Source: Arthrobacter alpinus (GTDB lineage: Bacteria > Actinomycetota > Actinomycetes > Actinomycetales > Micrococcaceae). From it: a stretch of 64,000 nt of DNA. The stretch lies in contig NZ_CP013200.1 in the NCBI RefSeq assembly GCF_001445575.1, positions 2,232,001-2,296,000 on the forward strand, given 5' to 3'. A model generated the notes under the pieces. The model ran no database searches, had not been told where the DNA came from, and saw only the letters and a list, made by a program, of their open reading frames with translations. Both the position numbers and the translations under genes were made by a program. Shown here in pieces: positions 558 to 25,895 of this stretch; the first letter of the stretch is position 1; each line of letters begins with the position of its first letter.

Positions 558-2083
558 ATGTCGGTGCCTGTAGCTATTGTTGTATCAACACTAGAAGAGC
601 TCGCTAGATTGAATTGGGGAAAATTGGCTGAACCTATAACGATGGTGCCTGATCCACACCTTATGGAGTCGATGAGAGCCGTTGGATACACCCTTGAGAC
701 GGCGATAGCTGATCTAATTGACAACTCAGTCACTGCTGGAGCCTCCCGAGTTGATCTTCTGTTCTCGGGCGACGGAACTAGCTACGTTGCTATCATCGAC
801 GATGGTGGCGGAATGTCAGCAGTGCAGGCTCAAAATGCCATGCGGCTGGCCGGCAAGAGTTCTCGGTCTGACAGAGAATCTCATGACCTTGGAAGATTCG
901 GGCTCGGCCTGAAGACGGCTTCCATTTCGCAATGCCGTGATCTGACCGTCGTGTCAAAGCATGACGGTCTTGTCCATGGGTATCGCTGGGATCTGGACTA
1001 CTTGATCGAGAAGGGTACATGGAGTTTACTTCAGCTGACGCAGGACGAATGTCGGAGCCTTCCTGAGTTTGCCGAACTCGACAAGAAGGCCACCGGCACT
1101 CTTGTTCTCTGGCGAAAATTGGATCAGCTCCAAGCGACAGCTGGGGACCTGGGTACTGGTCTAGACGAGAGTATGATTCGAGTCCGAAAGCACCTGAGCC
1201 TCGTTTTCCATAGATACCTTGCAGGCGAACACGGCAGGAAGTTCGTGATTGCCATAAATTATCGGCCCATTGAGGGGGCAGACCCATTGCTCCAATCTCA
1301 TCGGGCAACTCAACCCGGTCCACTTGAGAAGATCCACATCGAAGGTGAAGTGATCGAGCTCCGGCCCTTCACTCTTCCGCACCTAAATAAGCTCAGCAGC
1401 GCTGACAGGCAAAGGGCACGCGTCGATGGATCCCTCAGAGATAGTCAAGGGTTCTACATCTATCGTGAAAAACGATTGGTCATTTGGGGGACTTGGTTCC
1501 GCATCGCCCTAAGCAAGAGCTCGGTAAATTGGCACGGGTACGAGTGGACATTCCCAATACCCTCGACCATTTGTGGTCGTTGGATATCAAAAAGGCGCAA
1601 GCCGTGCCCCCGCCTGCAATTAGAAACCGACTTCGTCAGGTCGCCGACAATATCGTGGGCCCAAGCCGACGGGTTCACGAATACAGAGGTCGACCGACGT
1701 CAAAGGGTCCGGTGAACCACCTCTGGGATGTAATCGATGACAGGACGTCTTTCCGTTATGAGATTAACCGGAACCATCCGGCGGTCCTCGCACTCGGTGA
1801 GAGCATGGTCTCCGAAGAATCAGCCATGCTGGGGACACTAATCAGCCTACTGGAACAGTCTTTCCCTGTTGATGACGTCTACAACAGACTCGGCCAAGAC
1901 GCGATCCATACGCCTGCGGGGATAGACGACGCCGAACTCCATGTTTTGGCGTCATCATTGTGGGCTTCCCTAAAGAACAGTCTTAGCCCCCATGTCTTTG
2001 TTGATTCGATGCTCAATTCTGAACCTTTTAATAAAAATATTCGTGCTCGCGAAATCCTAGAAATTACGGTTGATGGCTCATGA
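558..2083 (+). pseudogene. MORC/MutL-like GHKL ATPase of a defence locus, frameshifted
   Basis: First gene of the defence operon. The N-terminal part (558 to about 1508) has the GHKL ATP-binding signatures: N-box ADLIDNS near residues 51-57, DDGGGM at 81-86, GRFGLGLKTAS at 112-122, and a GTLVLW strand. The C-terminal part continues in another frame (about 1508-2083) with KQELGKLARVRVDIPN. The family reads through ...GTWFRIA-x-KQELGK..., so one base appears to be missing around the CCC run at 1507-1509. The start could be 558 (GTAATG with a weak GAGAAG) or ATG 642 at MVPDPHL, where family similarity begins. Its last codon overlaps the Z1 gene by ATGA. MORC-like ATPases next to Z1, nuclease and methylase genes are known from comparative genomics and are thought to act as ATP-driven clamps. 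The ATPase may be inactive here, or the frameshift may be a sequence error. Confidence 0.75.
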
Positions 2084-5013
2084 CAATTCCAAATGTAACA
2101 GTACCGTTGTCTGTTTTGGAAGGCGCCGTTTTTGGAATGCTCCAAGACCCAGAGACAGGAGAGTCTCGTTTGGGTCTTCAAGAAGCCGACGTTCGGACGG
2201 CGTTTGAAAGCCTAACGTCGATTTTGCGGACGGGTGCCACCGAAGACGAGCTAGATCAACTTGTGAGATACGTGATTGCGGCTGTCAGTGCAGATATCCT
2301 AGGGCCAGGGTCTGGAGGTGTTACAAAGAAAGATCACGAACCTTGGTTGAAAGAGGTCAAATCGGAGATCAATTGGCGTAGATGGCGAGCCTATCGAAAA
2401 ATGCTTTCTAAGCAAGGCCGCTCAGGACGGGTATTAGAGAGGCTTGATACTTTCACCGATGACGTCCTCGATTTGGCCGGCAATCCCCAAAAGCCTGGTC
2501 CGTGGAATCGCCGTGGACTTATTATCGGGGATGTTCAGTCAGGTAAAACACAAAACTATTTGGGATTGATTAACAAGGCTGCTGATGCTGGCTACCGACT
2601 CGTAATTATTCTCTCTGGGAACACTGAGTATCTGCGCCGGCAGACCCATGAGCGAGTAGATGAGGGGTTTATCGGGCGCGACACTCGCCGCGTCGGAGTG
2701 CCGAAAAGTGCTGTACTTTCCAAGGACGTGCACATCGGTGTCGGCAAGATAGATCAGGAAGTAGCCAACGCTACGAGCCTAACGACTGTGCTCATGGACT
2801 ACCTGCAGGCAACCAAGAACAATGTTGATGTTCCGCTTCCATCCAGCTCTTCCGGACCTCTTGTGTTTGTATTGAAGAAGAATAAACATGTCCTTGAGGC
2901 TGTCAATGGCTGGGCCCGAGGCAAGGCCGGAAATCAAGGAAAAATCGACCTGCCGATTCTCCTCTTGGATGATGAATCTGACTACGCCTCGGTAAACACC
3001 AGGGGCGCAGAGGATCCCACCGCAATCAATGGTGCGATTCGTAATATCTTATCTCGTTTTAACCGATCATCTTATGTGGCGATCACGGCTACACCTTTCG
3101 CAAATATCTTCATTGACTATGAGGCGACAGGTATTGTGGACAAAGACGGTGATGTTATAGGAGACGTGGTCGATGATCTCTTCCCTGAGGACTACATTTA
3201 TCCTCTCGAAGCTCCGAATAATTACGTTGGTATTCGCGCGATGTTTGGATCAGATGATGATGAGCGACCCAAGGCTGTGCAAATTCTCACTGATGCGCAG
3301 GCGTGGATTCCTGTAAAGCATACCAAAAATCTGAAAATCAATGCACTGCCGGAGAGCCTTTTAGAGGCCGTTAGGGCATTCCTTCTCGTGAACGTCATTT
3401 TAGACAAGCGGGTCAAATCTCCGATTAGACGTTCAATGCTCGTGAATGTCTCTAGATTTACAAATGTTCAAGATGCAGTTGGTGAGCTACTGACCAGCGA
3501 ATTAGACAAGTACAAAACTGCGATCGAACTTCACGCTCTCACGTACGCCGCGGGAAGTGAAAATACACTTCTTGATAAATTGAAAGTAACTTACGAAAAA
3601 CAATTTGATTCAAAGTCACTTCCGTGGGAGAAAGTCCTTGCCCAACTTCATAAGTCTGTCGCCGATGTTCGAGTTAAAGTCTATAACTCCAGTGTCGATA
3701 AGGCAGAAACTAGCGGTGATGGGAAGGCGGAAGACGAAGATTACCAAGAGGAAGTACCGCCCCGACAAATTGCCGTTGGTGGTGACCTGTTGAGTCGGGG
3801 ACTCACCCTTGACGGTCTTGTTGTAAGTTACTTCCATCGAAGCGTAGGTGCCGCCGACACGATGATGCAGATGGCGAGGTGGTTTGGATACCGGGATGGC
3901 TTCCAGGATCTCTGCCGTCTCTGGATAAGTGAGAAGACTGCAGCCGACTACAGATTTGTGGGAGCGGCAATTCAAGAGCTTCGCGACGATCTGGCCCACA
4001 TGCGCCGAAATAACATGACGCCTCGAGATTTTGGCCTAGCTGTTCAACAACATCCAGAATCTCTGCTGATAACGGCGAGGAACAAGATGAAGGACACGGT
4101 TCAGTTCGAAAAGGAAGTGAACTTGTTGGGCCGCAATCTTGAAACTCGAAAGCTGTCGGCCAATCCCACTGTCCAAGCTGATAATTTCAGGCACACCCAA
4201 ACTCTGATAAAGGCTGCCATCGAGGCTGGATGTTCCCCGGACGCCCAGTCGACTCGGAGGGGCTACACCAGGTTCAGGGGAGTCCCGAAAGAACTTGTAG
4301 CGGACTTGTTGCAGGGGTACAAAGCCGCTGAAGATGATATTTTCTTCACCGGTAGTGGCCTAGAACGAATGATCAGAGCCAGCCAAGGGGAACACTTTCA
4401 GACTTGGGACGTGACAGTAATGAACGGGCCCAAAAAGCGAGAGGGAACGGACCTTCCTGAATTGATGGAACTCGTTCCGGGCAGGCCAGTGTTCAAAGTT
4501 TCTCGAAACCTGTTACTCCGGAGTCTCAAGGCTAAAGATGGTACTCTCACCGGATCTTCTCTGTGGGTCAGCGGAAAGAAGACCCGATTGGCGGGTAGCG
4601 ATGACTTACGTATGGTTCTTGATAAAGATGTCGAAGCCGCGGCCATTGCCTCCTATGGCGAGTACATAGCCAGTAGGCCCGTGGATCCGTCGGACACTGA
4701 ACCGGCCACTCTCGTGCCAGAAAGGGCTTTCTACCGCAACCTCCCACAACCTCAGCTCATGATCTACGCAGTCACACCCAGCCATGAGGATGGCATTGTT
4801 GTTGAAAGTGAAACTGGCGTCGCGCCAGAGTCTTTCGCCGCGAAAAATGAACTTGATGATGTTGCCACGGATCCCAACACTGCGCTCATCGCGCTGAAGA
4901 TTGCGCTGCCCACGTCGGACTCTGAATACGGCAGCAAGAATGGGCGCGTCAAGTACGTGCTCAACCGCGTGGCGCAAAAATACTGGATGGCCGACTATGA
5001 GGATCTGCTGTGA
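2080..5013 (+). CDS. Z1-domain helicase-like ATPase
   Basis: A 977-residue protein of the Z1 superfamily-II-like ATPase family. Seen directly: a Walker A variant GDVQSGKT at residues 150-157, a DEAD-like box LLLDDESD around 294-301, the ITATPFANIF segment, and the signature GGDLLSRGLTLDGL around 567 followed by MQMARWFGYRDG. In helicases the last two correspond to motifs V and VI. Z1 proteins occur almost only in restriction-modification-associated gene sets with MORC-like ATPases. The likely role, translocating on or remodelling foreign DNA for the nuclease, is inference. The gene starts inside the stop of the ATPase gene (ATGA) and overlaps the next gene by GTGA, so translation is probably coupled. 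Codon use is visibly more A/T-ending than in the core genes, consistent with acquisition by transfer. Confidence 0.93.
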   Translation: MTIPNVTVPLSVLEGAVFGMLQDPETGESRLGLQEADVRTAFESLTSILRTGATEDELDQLVRYVIAAVSADILGPGSGGVTKKDHEPWLKEVKSEINWRRWRAYRKMLSKQGRSGRVLERLDTFTDDVLDLAGNPQKPGPWNRRGLIIGDVQSGKTQNYLGLINKAADAGYRLVIILSGNTEYLRRQTHERVDEGFIGRDTRRVGVPKSAVLSKDVHIGVGKIDQEVANATSLTTVLMDYLQATKNNVDVPLPSSSSGPLVFVLKKNKHVLEAVNGWARGKAGNQGKIDLPILLLDDESDYASVNTRGAEDPTAINGAIRNILSRFNRSSYVAITATPFANIFIDYEATGIVDKDGDVIGDVVDDLFPEDYIYPLEAPNNYVGIRAMFGSDDDERPKAVQILTDAQAWIPVKHTKNLKINALPESLLEAVRAFLLVNVILDKRVKSPIRRSMLVNVSRFTNVQDAVGELLTSELDKYKTAIELHALTYAAGSENTLLDKLKVTYEKQFDSKSLPWEKVLAQLHKSVADVRVKVYNSSVDKAETSGDGKAEDEDYQEEVPPRQIAVGGDLLSRGLTLDGLVVSYFHRSVGAADTMMQMARWFGYRDGFQDLCRLWISEKTAADYRFVGAAIQELRDDLAHMRRNNMTPRDFGLAVQQHPESLLITARNKMKDTVQFEKEVNLLGRNLETRKLSANPTVQADNFRHTQTLIKAAIEAGCSPDAQSTRRGYTRFRGVPKELVADLLQGYKAAEDDIFFTGSGLERMIRASQGEHFQTWDVTVMNGPKKREGTDLPELMELVPGRPVFKVSRNLLLRSLKAKDGTLTGSSLWVSGKKTRLAGSDDLRMVLDKDVEAAAIASYGEYIASRPVDPSDTEPATLVPERAFYRNLPQPQLMIYAVTPSHEDGIVVESETGVAPESFAAKNELDDVATDPNTALIALKIALPTSDSEYGSKNGRVKYVLNRVAQKYWMADYEDLL

Positions 5014-5993
5014 CAGCTTCGGGATGGACCCCAGAACGTTGGCAAGATGAAGTCCGTGAGGGCTTGGTGAGTCTCCGGGAACTGGACCCCAATTCTTCGA
5101 TCCGCCTAGTATATGGCGCGGATGAGGTTGGTCGTCTAAGTTTTGGTCTGATCACCCGACGTCCACCAGGGCTACCCCAGCTTTCGGAAGCGGTGACTAT
5201 CGTCCGGGCGGAGAGAGAGCACGACGGCACTTGGATTCTGCTGTTGACACTTAATGATTCGAAGTTTAGCGATGTATTTGTACAACTCTGTGGTCATGTG
5301 CAATCGAAAGTAGCAAAATCCAAGACTGAGGCCGCAGGTATCTCAACCGCCATGGAGTGCTTCATGGAATGGAGGCAACTATTTCAGGCTTCAAAGAAGC
5401 ATATTCTCAGTATGCAGGAGCGGAGAGGGCTGTTCGCGGAATTGGATTTCGCCTTTAATGTCCTAGGACGCCGAGTTGGTCCCACTGCGGTCGTCGAAGG
5501 CTGGCAGGGGCCCTATGGTTCTGACCAAGACTTTCAGTTCGTCGACGCTCACTATGAAGTAAAAAGCCGATATTCGACAACACACGCCCTGCAGATTGCC
5601 TCTGAGTACCAGCTCGAAGGCGACAACATCACCCTCGTTTGCGTGGAAATTGCAGGAAGCTCCAAGGAACTCCCCGGATTTAGAACTCTTCCTGAATATG
5701 CGTCATGGGCGAGAGAGTCATTGGCTCAAGACGGCGGAGATCTTGAGGTGTTCGATAGTGCATTGGAACAAATAGGTTTCAATCCCAATGACGAAGCATA
5801 TTCGGAGGATTATTTCAAAGCCCAGAGCTACACCTACTTTGATGTTTCTGGCAGCTTTCCCCGCATTACCTCAAGAGACATCGCAGTTGGATTGTCAGGT
5901 GTGAAGTATCGAATTGATTTGACATCAATAGATGATTTTAAGATAGATGAAGAATCTGCTCTGAGTCTAATGAAAAGCTACGGAGGCGTCTAA
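5010..5993 (+). CDS. PD-(D/E)XK motif protein (DUF4420-type nuclease)
   Basis: A 327-residue protein of the PD-(D/E)XK/DUF4420 type that follows Z1 genes. The putative nuclease core lies in the middle: an acidic SDQDF stretch near residues 171-175, then HYEVKSR at 181-187, giving the expected D-x(n)-E-x-K arrangement, with a following helix containing QIASEYQ. The likely function is the endonuclease of the system, cutting DNA that lacks the partner methylation; this is inferred from family and context. The start is a GTG at 5010 overlapping the Z1 stop (GTGA). A GGAGG at its 3' end (5982-5986) serves as ribosome-binding site for the following AIPR gene. Confidence 0.85.
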   Translation: MTASGWTPERWQDEVREGLVSLRELDPNSSIRLVYGADEVGRLSFGLITRRPPGLPQLSEAVTIVRAEREHDGTWILLLTLNDSKFSDVFVQLCGHVQSKVAKSKTEAAGISTAMECFMEWRQLFQASKKHILSMQERRGLFAELDFAFNVLGRRVGPTAVVEGWQGPYGSDQDFQFVDAHYEVKSRYSTTHALQIASEYQLEGDNITLVCVEIAGSSKELPGFRTLPEYASWARESLAQDGGDLEVFDSALEQIGFNPNDEAYSEDYFKAQSYTYFDVSGSFPRITSRDIAVGLSGVKYRIDLTSIDDFKIDEESALSLMKSYGGV

Positions 5994-5995
5994 AA

Positions 5996-8068
5996 ATGGA
6001 CCTTGAGAACTATCACGAAAATTTACTCGCATCCGTCGGATCGCTGGCCGACGCCGATGGTGAGTTCACCGCAACCGCCTTTGCACGTCATGCTACCGGA
6101 CTTTTGACTGAAGCCGGTGAGTTCGATGATGCAGACGTACTGGACTTTGAGGGAACTGGTATACGGCGGCGAAAGTTGAAAGTGAACGGCTACGACTTGG
6201 ACAACGCCGACAACAGTGTGGCATTGATCGTTACACTCCACGTCGGTTCCCCCGAGATTCAAGTTATTTCAGGGACTGAAGCTAGAGCTGCACTCAAAGC
6301 CCTACAGCATTATCTAATGGAGTCTGTCGACGGGACCTTTCTTGAAGGGAGGGAGGAGAGCGCTCCTGCATACCAACTTGCCTATGACCTACGTAATCGC
6401 GGCAAGAATGTCACTAGGTATCGCCTCTATTTACTAACCGACGGACAGTTAAGTAACCGTCTACGCGAGCTACCTAGCGAAAGCTTGAACGAAATCCCCG
6501 TTGATTATCAGCTTTGGGATATAAACAGGCTGCACCAGTTGCACGAGTCCCAGAGCGGGCGAGAGGCGCTTCAGATCGACCTCCGAGAGTGGCGTTCCGA
6601 CGGTCTCGCGGCATTAAAAGTTGAATCCGCTCCGGAATTTGCCACGTATCTTGCCTCTGTACCTGGGACTGTGTTGGCGGGCCTGTACGGCAAGTACGGC
6701 AGCCGGCTTCTTGAGAGTAACGTCCGTTCTTATCTCACGAACCGCGGCAAGGTGAACAAGGGTATTCGGGAGACAATCTACTCATCACCCCAAAACTTCA
6801 TGGCGTTTAACAATGGTGTGACCGCGACCGCGACTTCTGTCGTCATGGACGAGGATAATTCAACAATACTCTCGATAGAGGACTTGCAGATCGTCAATGG
6901 CGGACAGACGACGGCCTCGTTGTTCTTCGTCGACAAGGAAGCTAAAGGCAAAGATGTCCTGGAGAACGTATTCGTTCCCATGAAGCTTGTGGTGGTTGAA
7001 GCGGCCGTAGCGAGTGACCTTGTTCCGAGCATCTCAAGATTTGCCAACAGCCAAAATGCTGTGAGCGCGGCCGACTTCTTTTCGAACAGCCCATATCATG
7101 TCCGCATTGAAGAGCTGTCTCGACGAGTCTTGGCGCCCGCCACATCGGGGGCGACCTTCAATACAAAGTGGTATTACGAAAGAACTCGCGGGCAATACGA
7201 AAACGAGAAGAGTAAGGTGTCGCAGGCGGAAGCTTCTCGATTCGATAGGCTCTATCCCAAGAGTCAGAAGTTTGATAAGCCGGCCTTGGCAAAATACCTT
7301 ATGTCATGGGACCAGCGGCCTCATGTCGTCAGCGGGGGAGCGCAGAAGAACTTTGTGGCATTTGCGGCCACAGTCCAACAGGCTTGGGATAAAGACGATT
7401 CCGCATTCAATGAGATTTACTTCAAAGAATCGGTTGCCAAGGCGATCCTCTTCACTTCAATTCACGGCGCTATAAGGAAGGCTCCCTGGTATAAGCAGGC
7501 CTACTTGGCCAACATCGTTGCCTATACGATATCCAAGATGGCTAGTCTCATTGAAGGTCATGGCCGAGGTCGGCTAATGGATTTCGCCTCGATTTGGCAA
7601 AACCAGTCCGTGCCTGAACATGTGATCAATGTAGCTTTAGACATAGGCGAATCCGTCCAAGTGGCCCTCACAAGCGAACACAGACCCACCACGAACGTAA
7701 CGGAATGGGCTAAGAAAGCGGATTTCTGGAATCTCATACAGGCAATGCCAATGCGTCTTCCTGATACATTCGTCGCTGCCCTCGCGGACCCGGCCAGCAT
7801 CGCACAGGCCCGAAAAACAGCTAAGGACACGCAAAAGATTGACGATGGAATCAATCAGCAGAAGAGGGTCTTTGAAGTACCTCTAGAACATTGGCTGGAG
7901 TTGCGTGACTTTTCGATCGGAAATGGCGTCGGCAGCCCCACGGATATGAGCATTCTTGACATGGTTACAGGGAGAAAGTCTGGTTTCCCAACTGAACGTC
8001 AATCGGCAAGGCTTTTGAATCTTGCGGCTGCGGCGAATGCTAGGGGATTTCAGACGTTTAGTCCTTGA
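5996..8068 (+). CDS. AIPR family (abortive infection phage resistance) protein
   Basis: A 690-residue AIPR-family protein. The hallmark region lies around residues 240-310: ESNVRSYLTNRGKVNKG, then NFMAFNNGVTATA and IVNGGQTTASL. AIPR proteins were named from a plasmid-encoded phage-resistance gene and recur in MORC/Z1 loci; their molecular activity is not settled. The start ATG at 5996 is two bases after the upstream stop and has GGAGG at 5982-5986. The last codons overlap the convergent methyltransferase gene by 11 bp, an unusually tight tail-to-tail join. It completes the four-gene plus-strand operon. Confidence 0.9.
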   Translation: MDLENYHENLLASVGSLADADGEFTATAFARHATGLLTEAGEFDDADVLDFEGTGIRRRKLKVNGYDLDNADNSVALIVTLHVGSPEIQVISGTEARAALKALQHYLMESVDGTFLEGREESAPAYQLAYDLRNRGKNVTRYRLYLLTDGQLSNRLRELPSESLNEIPVDYQLWDINRLHQLHESQSGREALQIDLREWRSDGLAALKVESAPEFATYLASVPGTVLAGLYGKYGSRLLESNVRSYLTNRGKVNKGIRETIYSSPQNFMAFNNGVTATATSVVMDEDNSTILSIEDLQIVNGGQTTASLFFVDKEAKGKDVLENVFVPMKLVVVEAAVASDLVPSISRFANSQNAVSAADFFSNSPYHVRIEELSRRVLAPATSGATFNTKWYYERTRGQYENEKSKVSQAEASRFDRLYPKSQKFDKPALAKYLMSWDQRPHVVSGGAQKNFVAFAATVQQAWDKDDSAFNEIYFKESVAKAILFTSIHGAIRKAPWYKQAYLANIVAYTISKMASLIEGHGRGRLMDFASIWQNQSVPEHVINVALDIGESVQVALTSEHRPTTNVTEWAKKADFWNLIQAMPMRLPDTFVAALADPASIAQARKTAKDTQKIDDGINQQKRVFEVPLEHWLELRDFSIGNGVGSPTDMSILDMVTGRKSGFPTERQSARLLNLAAAANARGFQTFSP

Positions 8069-9512
8069 GTTTTTGCAGCATCCCTGCCACGAGTTCACCG
8101 ATCTGCTTTGACAATAGGGGAGGGACTGCATTTCCTACTTGATGGAATTGTTGAGTCCTTGGTCCCTCGAAGAAGTAGTTGTCGGGGAAGGACTGCAGGC
8201 GCGCCGCTTCACGCACAGTGAAACTGCGCGCCTGGCTGGGGTCCGGATGGATGTAGTAATGTCCGTCTTTTGAGATGTGCGAAACGACCGTCGTGGCAGG
8301 GGAGTCCCATACTTGCACTCTAAATCGGTCGGTGAATGGTGTGCCCGCTTTCCCGATGTTTCGATGTTCGGGATGAAGTGATTGCGGCAAATCAGTGTAT
8401 TTCGGGCTCTTGCCAATGCGATCTGCTAGCTCTGCCATGACGCGGTATCGGGCAAGGTCTGAAACCATATGAGCCCGCGGATTGTTTTGCACAGGCAATG
8501 CCAGCTCACTTTCTCGGACCCAAGCCTCATAAGCTGCTACAGCGATCGATCCATTTTTCGCTGAGTCCGGTTTCGCAGTCACCTCTACCGCCCGGACATC
8601 CTGCAATGCTTTCGCTTGGACTGCTTTCCAGTCCTGATCAATTTTCGGTTTGCGGTTGGAAGTTTCGGCTCGGAGTCTTGGCATTCCTCGCAGGGCGGCT
8701 CGCACTGTGACAGCTCCATCTGCCTTGGTGAGCACTTGCCTCGGGATCATATGGGCAACATCACTTCGAATACCCAGAAGGATCACGCGATGGCGCTTCT
8801 GGGGAACGCCGTATTCTTCCGACCGGATGATGAAGTCAGACGGCTCAAGTTCGTCTGGATCCGCATCTACAACGAGTGAACGGATTTCATAGCGAGCGCC
8901 ACTTGAAAGACGTGTGAGGTCGGCAAGGATCGTTTGGAACATGCTCTTGTCGCCATTCTTCGACGAAAGTAGTCCTTTGACGTTTTCCATCACGAATATG
9001 GTTGGCCTGAACTTGCTTAGGATATGGAGATACTCGCGGTAGAGGAAATGTTTATGGTCTGAGGCAAAAGTTTCGTCGCCTGTCCTGCGAGAACGGCCGG
9101 CCAGCGAATACGCCTGGCACGGCGGGCCGCCTATGAGGGCCCAATGGCCTCGTTGACTCTCCGGTCCAAGTTTAAGCGCGATATGGCGATCAACTTCAGG
9201 ACGATTCTCCTCGCCGAGCTCTACGCGATACACATGCTGCTTAGCCGCCGTGTAAGCCGTTTTGAAGTCACCGCGGAGCGTTTCAGGCCAAGTCTTCTCA
9301 CCACTTATGTAGGCAAAGTACGGCTCAAGATCGCTGCCCGTTCGCACTAGCTCTCGGTACGTAGCACGTAGCCGAAGAGTTTGACACGCAAAACTGTCCA
9401 TCTCTAATGATGCAAGTGTCTTGAAGGCATAGTCGCCGTCATCATTCTTGACACTTGAGAATCCTTCGTTGAGGCCTCCCGGCCCTGCGAAGAGATCAAT
9501 GATTGGAAACAC
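8058..9512 (-). CDS. DNA (cytosine-5-)-methyltransferase
   Basis: A 484-residue C5-cytosine methyltransferase. Motifs in order: motif I DLFAGPGG at residues 6-13, motif IV GGPPCQAYSLAGRS with catalytic Cys near 132, motif VI MENVKG, motif VIII QKRHRVILLG, and C-terminal LQSFPDNY with the motif X region QVGNAVPPLLSKQI. It should protect host DNA from the associated nuclease by methylating its target; the target sequence cannot be read from here. A GTG at 9518 overlaps the AAGGAG ribosome-binding sequence, so the next in-frame GTG (9512) is the better start. It is transcribed toward the operon from its own promoter region, which holds a 15-bp palindrome at 9558-9572. Confidence 0.93.
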   Translation of the reverse strand: MFPIIDLFAGPGGLNEGFSSVKNDDGDYAFKTLASLEMDSFACQTLRLRATYRELVRTGSDLEPYFAYISGEKTWPETLRGDFKTAYTAAKQHVYRVELGEENRPEVDRHIALKLGPESQRGHWALIGGPPCQAYSLAGRSRRTGDETFASDHKHFLYREYLHILSKFRPTIFVMENVKGLLSSKNGDKSMFQTILADLTRLSSGARYEIRSLVVDADPDELEPSDFIIRSEEYGVPQKRHRVILLGIRSDVAHMIPRQVLTKADGAVTVRAALRGMPRLRAETSNRKPKIDQDWKAVQAKALQDVRAVEVTAKPDSAKNGSIAVAAYEAWVRESELALPVQNNPRAHMVSDLARYRVMAELADRIGKSPKYTDLPQSLHPEHRNIGKAGTPFTDRFRVQVWDSPATTVVSHISKDGHYYIHPDPSQARSFTVREAARLQSFPDNYFFEGPRTQQFHQVGNAVPPLLSKQIGELVAGMLQKLKD

Positions 9513-9557
9513 ACGCACTCCTTAGTATCTGACACTCCAAGGTACCAGGTGCCGCTG

Positions 9558-9585: not shown

Positions 9586-10507
9586 AGTTGCCTCGAGATC
9601 GGTCCGAAACGTCTCTTCCGGCGCGGTAACGGGAACTGTCGTCTCGTTCAAAGTGACCATTATCATTTGGATCAAAGATTTCTTGGTGGGCTCGTTGGTG
9701 AGCTGACAGGTGGCAAGAGGAACGCAAGTTCGTTGGCGGAATGTGATCTCATCAAGATTTTCGAATTTTTCGTCGTAGTCAGTTCCATCAGATCCCAGCA
9801 GCGAAGTACGTGACCCCTAACCGAGCGACTGGCTACCAGAAACGACGATGGAGGGTTTGCGCGGCTGGTGATCCTCGGTTGGTAGCCCGACGTACTACAT
9901 CGGTGTTCCTTTGAGATCAATTGCAACAGTTTGTTATTGGTGCTTGTTTAGAGCTCAGATGCAGGACGTGCCACTTATGGAGCCGTGAAGTTCATCGCCA
10001 TCTTTGGGAGTATTGAGACCGTGGCACCGAGCAGACTGAGTCCGAACGCGCCGACTACCTTCACGGAATTGAAGCCACCCGGCGGTCTCGGACTGTATGT
10101 TTCGAACTGGTTAGCGCCCGTACCAAACGGACGGATTTAGATGAGTCCACGGCCCGTTTGACGGTGCGAATATGGGAACGGTCGAGCATCCAAGAAGTTT
10201 CTATCGTCGCATGATGTGGCTTGTCAATTCGACGCAATCTAATTAGACGCCATCTTGGTGGGTAGGGGCGGCCTCCGTGCGATCACTGACTCCGTGGTCA
10301 AGGGAATTCGGTGGCTGGCACAACGGCACCAAGAGGTGGCGCGGATGCCCATGCTGCTGGTTCCTGCGATGAAAATGGCTCGGCATTCGTTCATAAACGT
10401 GACCAGAAATTGAACCTATTTGCGTCCCAGAACAAGCCAAAAACGTGACCAAGTTTTCGTTCAAAAACGTGAGTAAAACGTGACTTGGGCCGTTTTTGGC
10501 CTTAGAC
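9586..10507. other. gene-free right end of the island
   Basis: About 0.9 kb without a credible gene between the methyltransferase and tRNA-Arg. Short frames exist but none has a recognisable product. The DNA contains an imperfect inverted repeat (AGTACGT near 9805 to ACGTACT near 9893, with inner arms GGCTACCA and TGGTAGCC) and a cluster of AAACGTGA repeats at 10385-10485. It is probably decayed island DNA next to the integration site. Confidence 0.5.
10385..10485 (+). repeat. AAACGTGA short repeat cluster
   Basis: AAACGTGA occurs four times in the same orientation (about 10395, 10441, 10465 and 10476). Two copies lie in a longer near-identical unit, TTCGTTCAWAAACGTGA, at 10386-10402 and 10456-10472. 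The spacing is irregular, so this is neither a CRISPR array nor clean iterons. It could be remnants of insertion-element ends or protein-binding sites at the island edge. Confidence 0.5.
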
Positions 10508-10551
10508 GCCTCTGACCCGCGGAATATAACCGCAGGTCAGAGGCTGTTTTT
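10508..10551. terminator. strong hairpin 3' of tRNA-Arg
   Basis: GCCTCTGACC (10508-10517) pairs perfectly with GGTCAGAGGC (10535-10544), and inner GCGG/CCGC extends the stem. A TGTTTTT run follows on the plus strand. It can stop plus-strand transcription coming out of the island and may also mark the 3' end of the minus-strand tRNA transcript. Confidence 0.6.
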
Positions 10552-10626
10552 GGTGCCCCGGGCGGGAATTGAACCCACGACCAAGAGATTAGAAGGCTCC
10601 TGCTCTATCCGCTGAGCTACCGAGGC
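10551..10626 (-). tRNA. tRNA-Arg (anticodon UCU)
   Basis: Read on the minus strand, a 76-nt cloverleaf with acceptor GCCTCGG/CCGGGGC, anticodon loop CTTCTAA giving UCU, T-loop GGTTCAATTCC and an encoded CCA end. The 3' end faces the island, the orientation expected when an element has integrated at a tRNA 3' end. Confidence 0.95.
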
Positions 10627-10810: not shown

Positions 10811-11419
10811 ATGGCAAACTACATCAGCCTCCGGGGATTTGTTAGCTCGGACATCACCATGAGCACCACGGACAGCGGTCTCGTGATCGCAAAATTCCGA
10901 ATGGGTTCAAACACCCGTCAGCAGGATCCCATCACCAACCAGTGGGTTGACGGAAAGACCAACTGGTTTCAGGTCAGTGCCTTCAGGGCGCTGGCCACCA
11001 ACGCCATGATCAGCATTCACAAGGGGAACCGGATCGTGGTCACGGGCAAGCTCAAGGTGACTTCTTACCTTCGCAAGGACGGGACGCCCGGAAACGGTGT
11101 GGACATCGAGGCGGACAGCATCGGCCTTGACCTCAACTTTGGCAACGTCACGTACCACCGCACGCCGTCGAACAGTCAAAATAACGGTGCCAGCGGTGCG
11201 GAACACGCTGGCGGATCGGTGCCCCCGGACATCGACGAAGGGGAATTCCCCAATCAGGATCCTGAAGATGCTGATACAACTGACGGCGGTGACAACGGAG
11301 ACGGCGACCAAACTGACGACGGCGGGGACGACGAGCGCAGCGCTGCCCAAGGGCTCCAGGAGGGTGAACACGCTAACGAAGACACGGGGGAGATCCTGGT
11401 AGACGCAGCGCCCTACTAG
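10811..11419 (+). CDS. ssb: single-stranded DNA-binding protein (paralogue)
   Basis: A 202-residue protein whose first ~115 residues form an SSB OB-fold: WFQVSAFRALA, then GNRIVVTGKLKV and SYLRKDG. It binds single-stranded DNA in replication, repair or uptake. The C-terminal half is low-complexity and very acidic (Asp/Gly/Glu). It ends DAAPY, not the DDDxPF tip that recruits partner proteins in the main SSB, so this is probably a secondary SSB. The rplI/rpsF neighbours expected for the main ssb are also absent. GAAAGG precedes ATG 10811. Confidence 0.85.
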   Translation: MANYISLRGFVSSDITMSTTDSGLVIAKFRMGSNTRQQDPITNQWVDGKTNWFQVSAFRALATNAMISIHKGNRIVVTGKLKVTSYLRKDGTPGNGVDIEADSIGLDLNFGNVTYHRTPSNSQNNGASGAEHAGGSVPPDIDEGEFPNQDPEDADTTDGGDNGDGDQTDDGGDDERSAAQGLQEGEHANEDTGEILVDAAPY

Positions 11420-24797: not shown

Positions 24798-25895
24798 ATG
24801 CCTGAGGGGCATTCGGTCCACCGCCTGGCGCGGCAGTTCAGCGACGTCTTTGCCGGTGCCGCGCTGGCAGTCTCCAGTCCGCAGGGAAAGTTTGCTGCTG
24901 GAGCGTTGCTCCTTGATGGCCAGGTGTTGGAACGGGCCGAGGCGCACGGCAAACAAATGTTCCTGTACTTCACTCACGACCTGGTGATGCGGGTGCACCT
25001 TGGCCTGTACGGAGCGTGGGACTTTGGTGGGGACTCAACATTCACCGGAGCCTCCAGCATTGGCGCACCGCGGCGCATTGGTGAACGGGAAATTGTTGGG
25101 GATCGTGGGTGGGCCCACGCGTCCGAGGGCCCCGCGGCGAACTTGCGAGCCGGGGGAGGACGTGGGTGGGCCCACGCGTCCGAGGGCCCCGCGGCGAACT
25201 TGCGAGCCGGGGGAGGACGTGGGGACTACCACGGGCCGCCAGTACCCAAGGGCGCCGTGCGCGTGCGTCTTGTCTCGGATCACGGTTGGGCTGATCTTCG
25301 CGGACCCACGGCCTGCGAGGTTATTACCCCAGCCGAATCGGAGGCGGTTCGGCGCAGGCTGGGACCCGATCCACTGAACAATGTGCCAGGTGACGCGCAG
25401 GAGTTTGCGCGCCGGATCCGTAAGAGTTCCACGTCCATTGCCTTGCAGTTGATGAAGCAGGAAGTGCTGGCTGGGGTGGGCAACGTTTACCGGGCCGAGG
25501 TGCTGTTCCGGCTAGGGCTTGATCCCCTGATGCCAGGCAAGAGCTTGCAGGCCGATGAGGCGCAGGCGCTGTGGGGCGACATTGGGCGCATTATGGCCGA
25601 TGGTGTCCGCGATGGCCGCATCATCACCACTGAGCTCTGTGATCGTCCCACTGGTGTGGGGTTGGAGGTGGGTCACGGGCTGCGTGAACGCACTGTGTCC
25701 GGCTTCGCTGCGTCTAGCGTTGTAGCCGCCAACTCAGCCATGGCCTCAGCCACTAACAAGGACGTGCCGGTGGATGATGCTCACTACGTGTACAAACGCG
25801 AAGGAAGGCCCTGCAGGCATTGCGGCACCGAGATTGCCATGAAAGAGCTCGGCGGCAGAAAGCTGTACTGGTGTCCGGGCTGCCAAGGACGCTAG
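24798..25895 (+). CDS. Fpg/Nei family DNA glycosylase with in-frame tandem insertion
   Basis: A 365-residue bifunctional DNA glycosylase/AP lyase for oxidised bases. The mature N-terminus would be PEGHSVHRLARQ, with catalytic Pro and Glu right after the start Met, which fixes ATG 24798. The H2TH region reads QEVLAGVGNVYRAEVLFR, and the C-terminal zinc finger is CRHC-x(14)-CPGC. MPEGHS suggests the Nei branch. Odd feature: residues about 103-141 contain two identical 19-residue units (GWAHASEGPAANLRAGGGR) encoded by a perfect 57-bp duplication, a Gly/Ala loop expected to protrude from the N-terminal domain. Whether it affects activity is unknown. The frame remains open throughout. Confidence 0.9.
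   Translation: MPEGHSVHRLARQFSDVFAGAALAVSSPQGKFAAGALLLDGQVLERAEAHGKQMFLYFTHDLVMRVHLGLYGAWDFGGDSTFTGASSIGAPRRIGEREIVGDRGWAHASEGPAANLRAGGGRGWAHASEGPAANLRAGGGRGDYHGPPVPKGAVRVRLVSDHGWADLRGPTACEVITPAESEAVRRRLGPDPLNNVPGDAQEFARRIRKSSTSIALQLMKQEVLAGVGNVYRAEVLFRLGLDPLMPGKSLQADEAQALWGDIGRIMADGVRDGRIITTELCDRPTGVGLEVGHGLRERTVSGFAASSVVAANSAMASATNKDVPVDDAHYVYKREGRPCRHCGTEIAMKELGGRKLYWCPGCQGR
25105..25218 (+). repeat. two perfect 57-bp tandem repeats inside the glycosylase gene
   Basis: Copies at 25105-25161 and 25162-25218 are identical, each 19 codons, and contain GGGCCCC-N4-CGAACTTGCGAG and GGGGGAG like the intergenic repeat at 18216. A palindromic GTGGGCCCAC lies near the start of each copy. Confidence 0.95.

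Follow-up and report, generated by a model that had tools for sequence, protein, structure and literature searches.

Is the five-gene locus near the start of this Arthrobacter alpinus sequence (NZ_CP013200.1, positions 2,232,001 to 2,296,000; 64,000 nucleotides, hereafter the window) a real restriction-like defence system, and what might give it specificity? The locus has a MORC-type GHKL ATPase, a third open reading frame (ORF), a DUF4420 nuclease and an AIPR protein, which form the core, and a C5 DNA methyltransferase. The system is real and of an already described kind; the frame of its ATPase gene is uncertain. It belongs to the third of the MORC operon types that Iyer, Abhiman and Aravind predicted in 2008, which is the "Type II" of Miller et al. 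(2022), and is a distant relative of MZA. The initial annotation had named the 2008 prediction and proposed a five-gene defence locus. What it observed is confirmed in part and its interpretation is supported in part. The ATPase frame is broken in this sequence. The class of system was known; the newer result is that the four core genes evolve together, while the methylase seems, from sequence comparison, to move between versions of the cluster that are only distantly related.

Apparent exchange of the methylase

The methylase (8058..9518, minus strand, 486 aa) has the motifs PPCQ, ENV and QxRxR, which agrees with its annotation as a C5 cytosine DNA methyltransferase, and a target domain at about residues 250-430. 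Its co-evolution with the core was followed in 80 of the 81 systems built; L127 was dropped for a methylase score below 100 bits. Loci lacking DUF4420 (L070, L079) or a methylase (L072, L073, L094) were excluded, as were G124, G147, G377 and G408, in which the methylase or the gene set is distant, doubtful or different. In this set the window's ATPase is represented by its first half only.

Among 80 loci, 77 have a methylase close to the core, and in 74 of these 77 it lies within 1.5 kb. This is hard to explain if the methylase is dispensable, and therefore counts against an alternative in which the core responds not to sequence but to another signal, such as DNA ends, intermediates of replication or recombination, or phage proteins, and then kills the cell or arrests it, the methylase acting as an independent guard. 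We consider that explanation improbable. The methylases are unrelated (less than 35% identical) in 30 of 155 pairs with a core identity of at least 0.5; the corresponding count for each core gene is 0 to 6. Loci L095 and L109 have cores that are 72-78% identical and methylases that are 25% identical. In the family of elements related to the one that carries the locus, four different cores accompany two methylase alleles.

These three observations weigh against a classical matched restriction-modification (R-M) system, in which the core would by itself recognise the same sequence as the methylase and cut unmethylated sites. Several features do fit such a system. A nuclease with an intact active site adjoins a C5 methylase, the methylases are similar in 8/8 pairs with a core identity of at least 0.8, some core blocks correlate above the null with the methylase target domain, and the AIPR C-terminus is more alike in methylase-matched pairs. 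Core segments do track the target domain, if weakly. A matched R-M system is rather unlikely, though it deserves consideration. We propose instead, at about even odds, that the methylase would supply specificity to a generic effector, in a logic similar to that of BREX.

Nuclease and AIPR protein

The third ORF (2080..5013, plus strand) matches MzaC. The DUF4420 protein (5010..5993, plus strand, 327 aa) matches PF14390 and MzaD, and its active-site residues E144-D174-E183xK185-Q201 are conserved in 80/80 loci. This fits its annotation as a PD-(D/E)XK protein. It is probably the cutting subunit.

The AIPR protein (5996..8068, plus strand, 690 aa) matches MzaE. Its predicted structure has a PD-(D/E)XK-like fold at residues 1-190 in which no D/E-x-K pair is conserved, a ParB/Srx/SspE-like fold at about 211-355, and a helical C-terminus. 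The protein is thus predicted to join a nuclease-like domain to a ParB/SspE-like domain. It has the appearance of an SspE/GmrSD-type sensor. The likeness to restriction enzymes of the SspE, GmrSD and BrxU type is weak by Z. The DUF262 motif is DGQQR, and AIPR has NGGQT in its place.

The frame break in the ATPase gene

The ATPase gene lies in two frames. The first (558..1715, plus strand, 385 aa) matches PF13589 with 112.7 bits and positions 2-286 of the NCBIfam MzaB model. Its homology is limited to about the first 316 residues, and it holds the GHKL motifs as well as the beginning of the S5 domain. The second half is a 199-aa ORF in another frame (1484..2083, plus strand; MzaB model 289-470), which is homologous from about residue 9 and carries the rest of the S5 domain and the C-terminus. 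The PF13589 match and the alignment with relatives across both halves confirm the MORC-type identity given in the initial annotation; a relative matches MORC2 and MutL in the PDB. The ATPase is a single ORF in 79/80 loci and in 8/8 relatives in a separate comparison. Programmed frameshifting was considered because two clean frames overlap, but is unlikely: no canonical slippery heptamer was seen by eye at the junction and the relatives have a single ORF.

The first and second halves are 93% and 92% identical to the intact 507-aa protein P0001. Since both are equally close to it, there is no visible decay of the second half. Conserved genes of a genome of the same genus (G271) were also compared with 333 kb of this chromosome, and 9 of 138 testable genes were called split in this genome (G000). 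Seven were judged believable; the call at 24841-25467, which falls at tRNA genes, and the short one at 149469-150074 are doubtful. Among the genes split in this assembly are ruvB, at its 3' end, and an aminotransferase gene. A tyrosine recombinase gene spread over three frames (L151 9415-10348), read as xerC-like from its sequence and PF00589 matches, suggests residual indels in the assembly. The relaxase of the element carrying the locus is split at residue 915 and whole in three relatives. In the reverse test 5/167 genes were split in the other genome, so some splits are usual. Because the halves are equally conserved and other genes are split in the assembly, some splits being usual, an indel error in the sequence or its assembly has about the same probability as a mutation.

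The locus may nevertheless be dead, with the break a real inactivating mutation in a decaying element, which would be compatible with any mechanism. The equal conservation of the halves, the four remaining open genes and the signs of indel errors in the xerC-like, aminotransferase and ruvB genes argue against this, although splits in the other genome temper the last point. We regard a dead locus as a serious possibility, somewhat short of even.

The conjugative element and its defence slot

A 52-kb conjugative element carries the locus as cargo at its tRNA-Arg end. By its genes for an integrase, a relaxase, a coupling protein and T4SS parts (PF00589, TrwC, TraG-D_C, TrbL) and the tRNA-Arg half repeats at both ends, the element is a putative integrative conjugative element (ICE), with its relaxase split here. 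In a survey that scanned 18 selected proteins, the slot held defence or R-M genes in 11/11 readable copies. The target is a tRNA-Arg (TCT) gene (10551..10626, minus strand), followed by ssb at 10811. The attachment-site repeat (10453..10588) comprises the 3' half of the tRNA-Arg, as far as the anticodon loop, and a downstream arm-like sequence; relatives of it occur at G000:C1 2183887-2184142, 2190524-2190675 and elsewhere.

The 3' half of this tRNA-Arg, accompanied by an arm-like AACGTGA sequence, recurs in imperfect copies over about 150 kb (window 10453-10588 and G000:C1 2093302-2190675) and in a second region (2641819-2662909), and such repeats are present in other genomes of the genus. 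The array resembles a stack of integrations at a single tRNA. Within it, a 6.5-kb segment flanked by two attachment repeats (L039, G000:C1 2184525-2189704) encodes a GmrSD_N protein and a treble-clef DUF4379 protein, and is perhaps another small defence cassette. Two further DUF4192 genes (G000:C1 2163717-2164817 and 2169309-2170406) share 78-82% identity with the one on the element, which suggests that the array contains additional elements or remnants.

This defence family is widespread and, as far as literature searches show, experimentally largely untested. Three points can be tested: a methylase accompanies nearly every core but can be exchanged, DUF4420 is the probable cutter, and AIPR looks like a sensor; methylase exchange and the AIPR fold deserve experiment. 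If the methylase alone sets specificity, one gene could re-target the system, as in BREX. Through the slot, related conjugative elements that differ in their defence cargo form a natural series.

Comparison with known systems

The MZA system (mzaABCDE) was reportedly described by Gao et al. in 2020. Comparison with the PADLOC and NCBIfam defence models gave MzaB, C, D and E matches in the same order, but all are under the NCBIfam curated equivalog cut-offs: MzaB 237 bits of 850 for the first half (second half 76), MzaC 413 of 1500, MzaD 80 of 420 and MzaE 351 of 1050. No MzaA sigma factor was found near 2.23 Mb; the whole genome has two matches, to model positions 424-670, at 3.12 and 3.93 Mb.

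MZA is named in Miller et al. 2022 (PMC9523054), whose available text gives the gene set and distribution of Type II, and that text mentions neither the slot on the element nor an exchange of the methylase, the fold of AIPR or the frame break. The third type of Iyer et al. (PMC2292703) shares with the locus the MORC protein, a helicase with DThhQXuRhFG and an E-D-ExK nuclease; cytosine methylases are frequent in it and the Figure 2 legend names AIPR. It is a prediction, and the available text holds no test of methylase exchange. Another described actinobacterial island has the same domain company, but an EcoRII-like endonuclease, with neither AIPR nor MORC named in the available description. 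As in the defence hot spots of other conjugative elements, the SXT ICE for example, in the portions available, alternative defence systems occupy one slot on a transferable element; the window's is a different element, sited at the tRNA-Arg of an actinobacterium.

The likeness to BREX is an analogy of working logic alone, and no homology of the cores is claimed. PglX is an adenine methylase, whereas the window has a C5 cytosine methylase. In the proposed analogy with the PglX/BrxX methylase (PMC11341690, PMC11842806), the methylase would set the specificity of marking as well as of defence.
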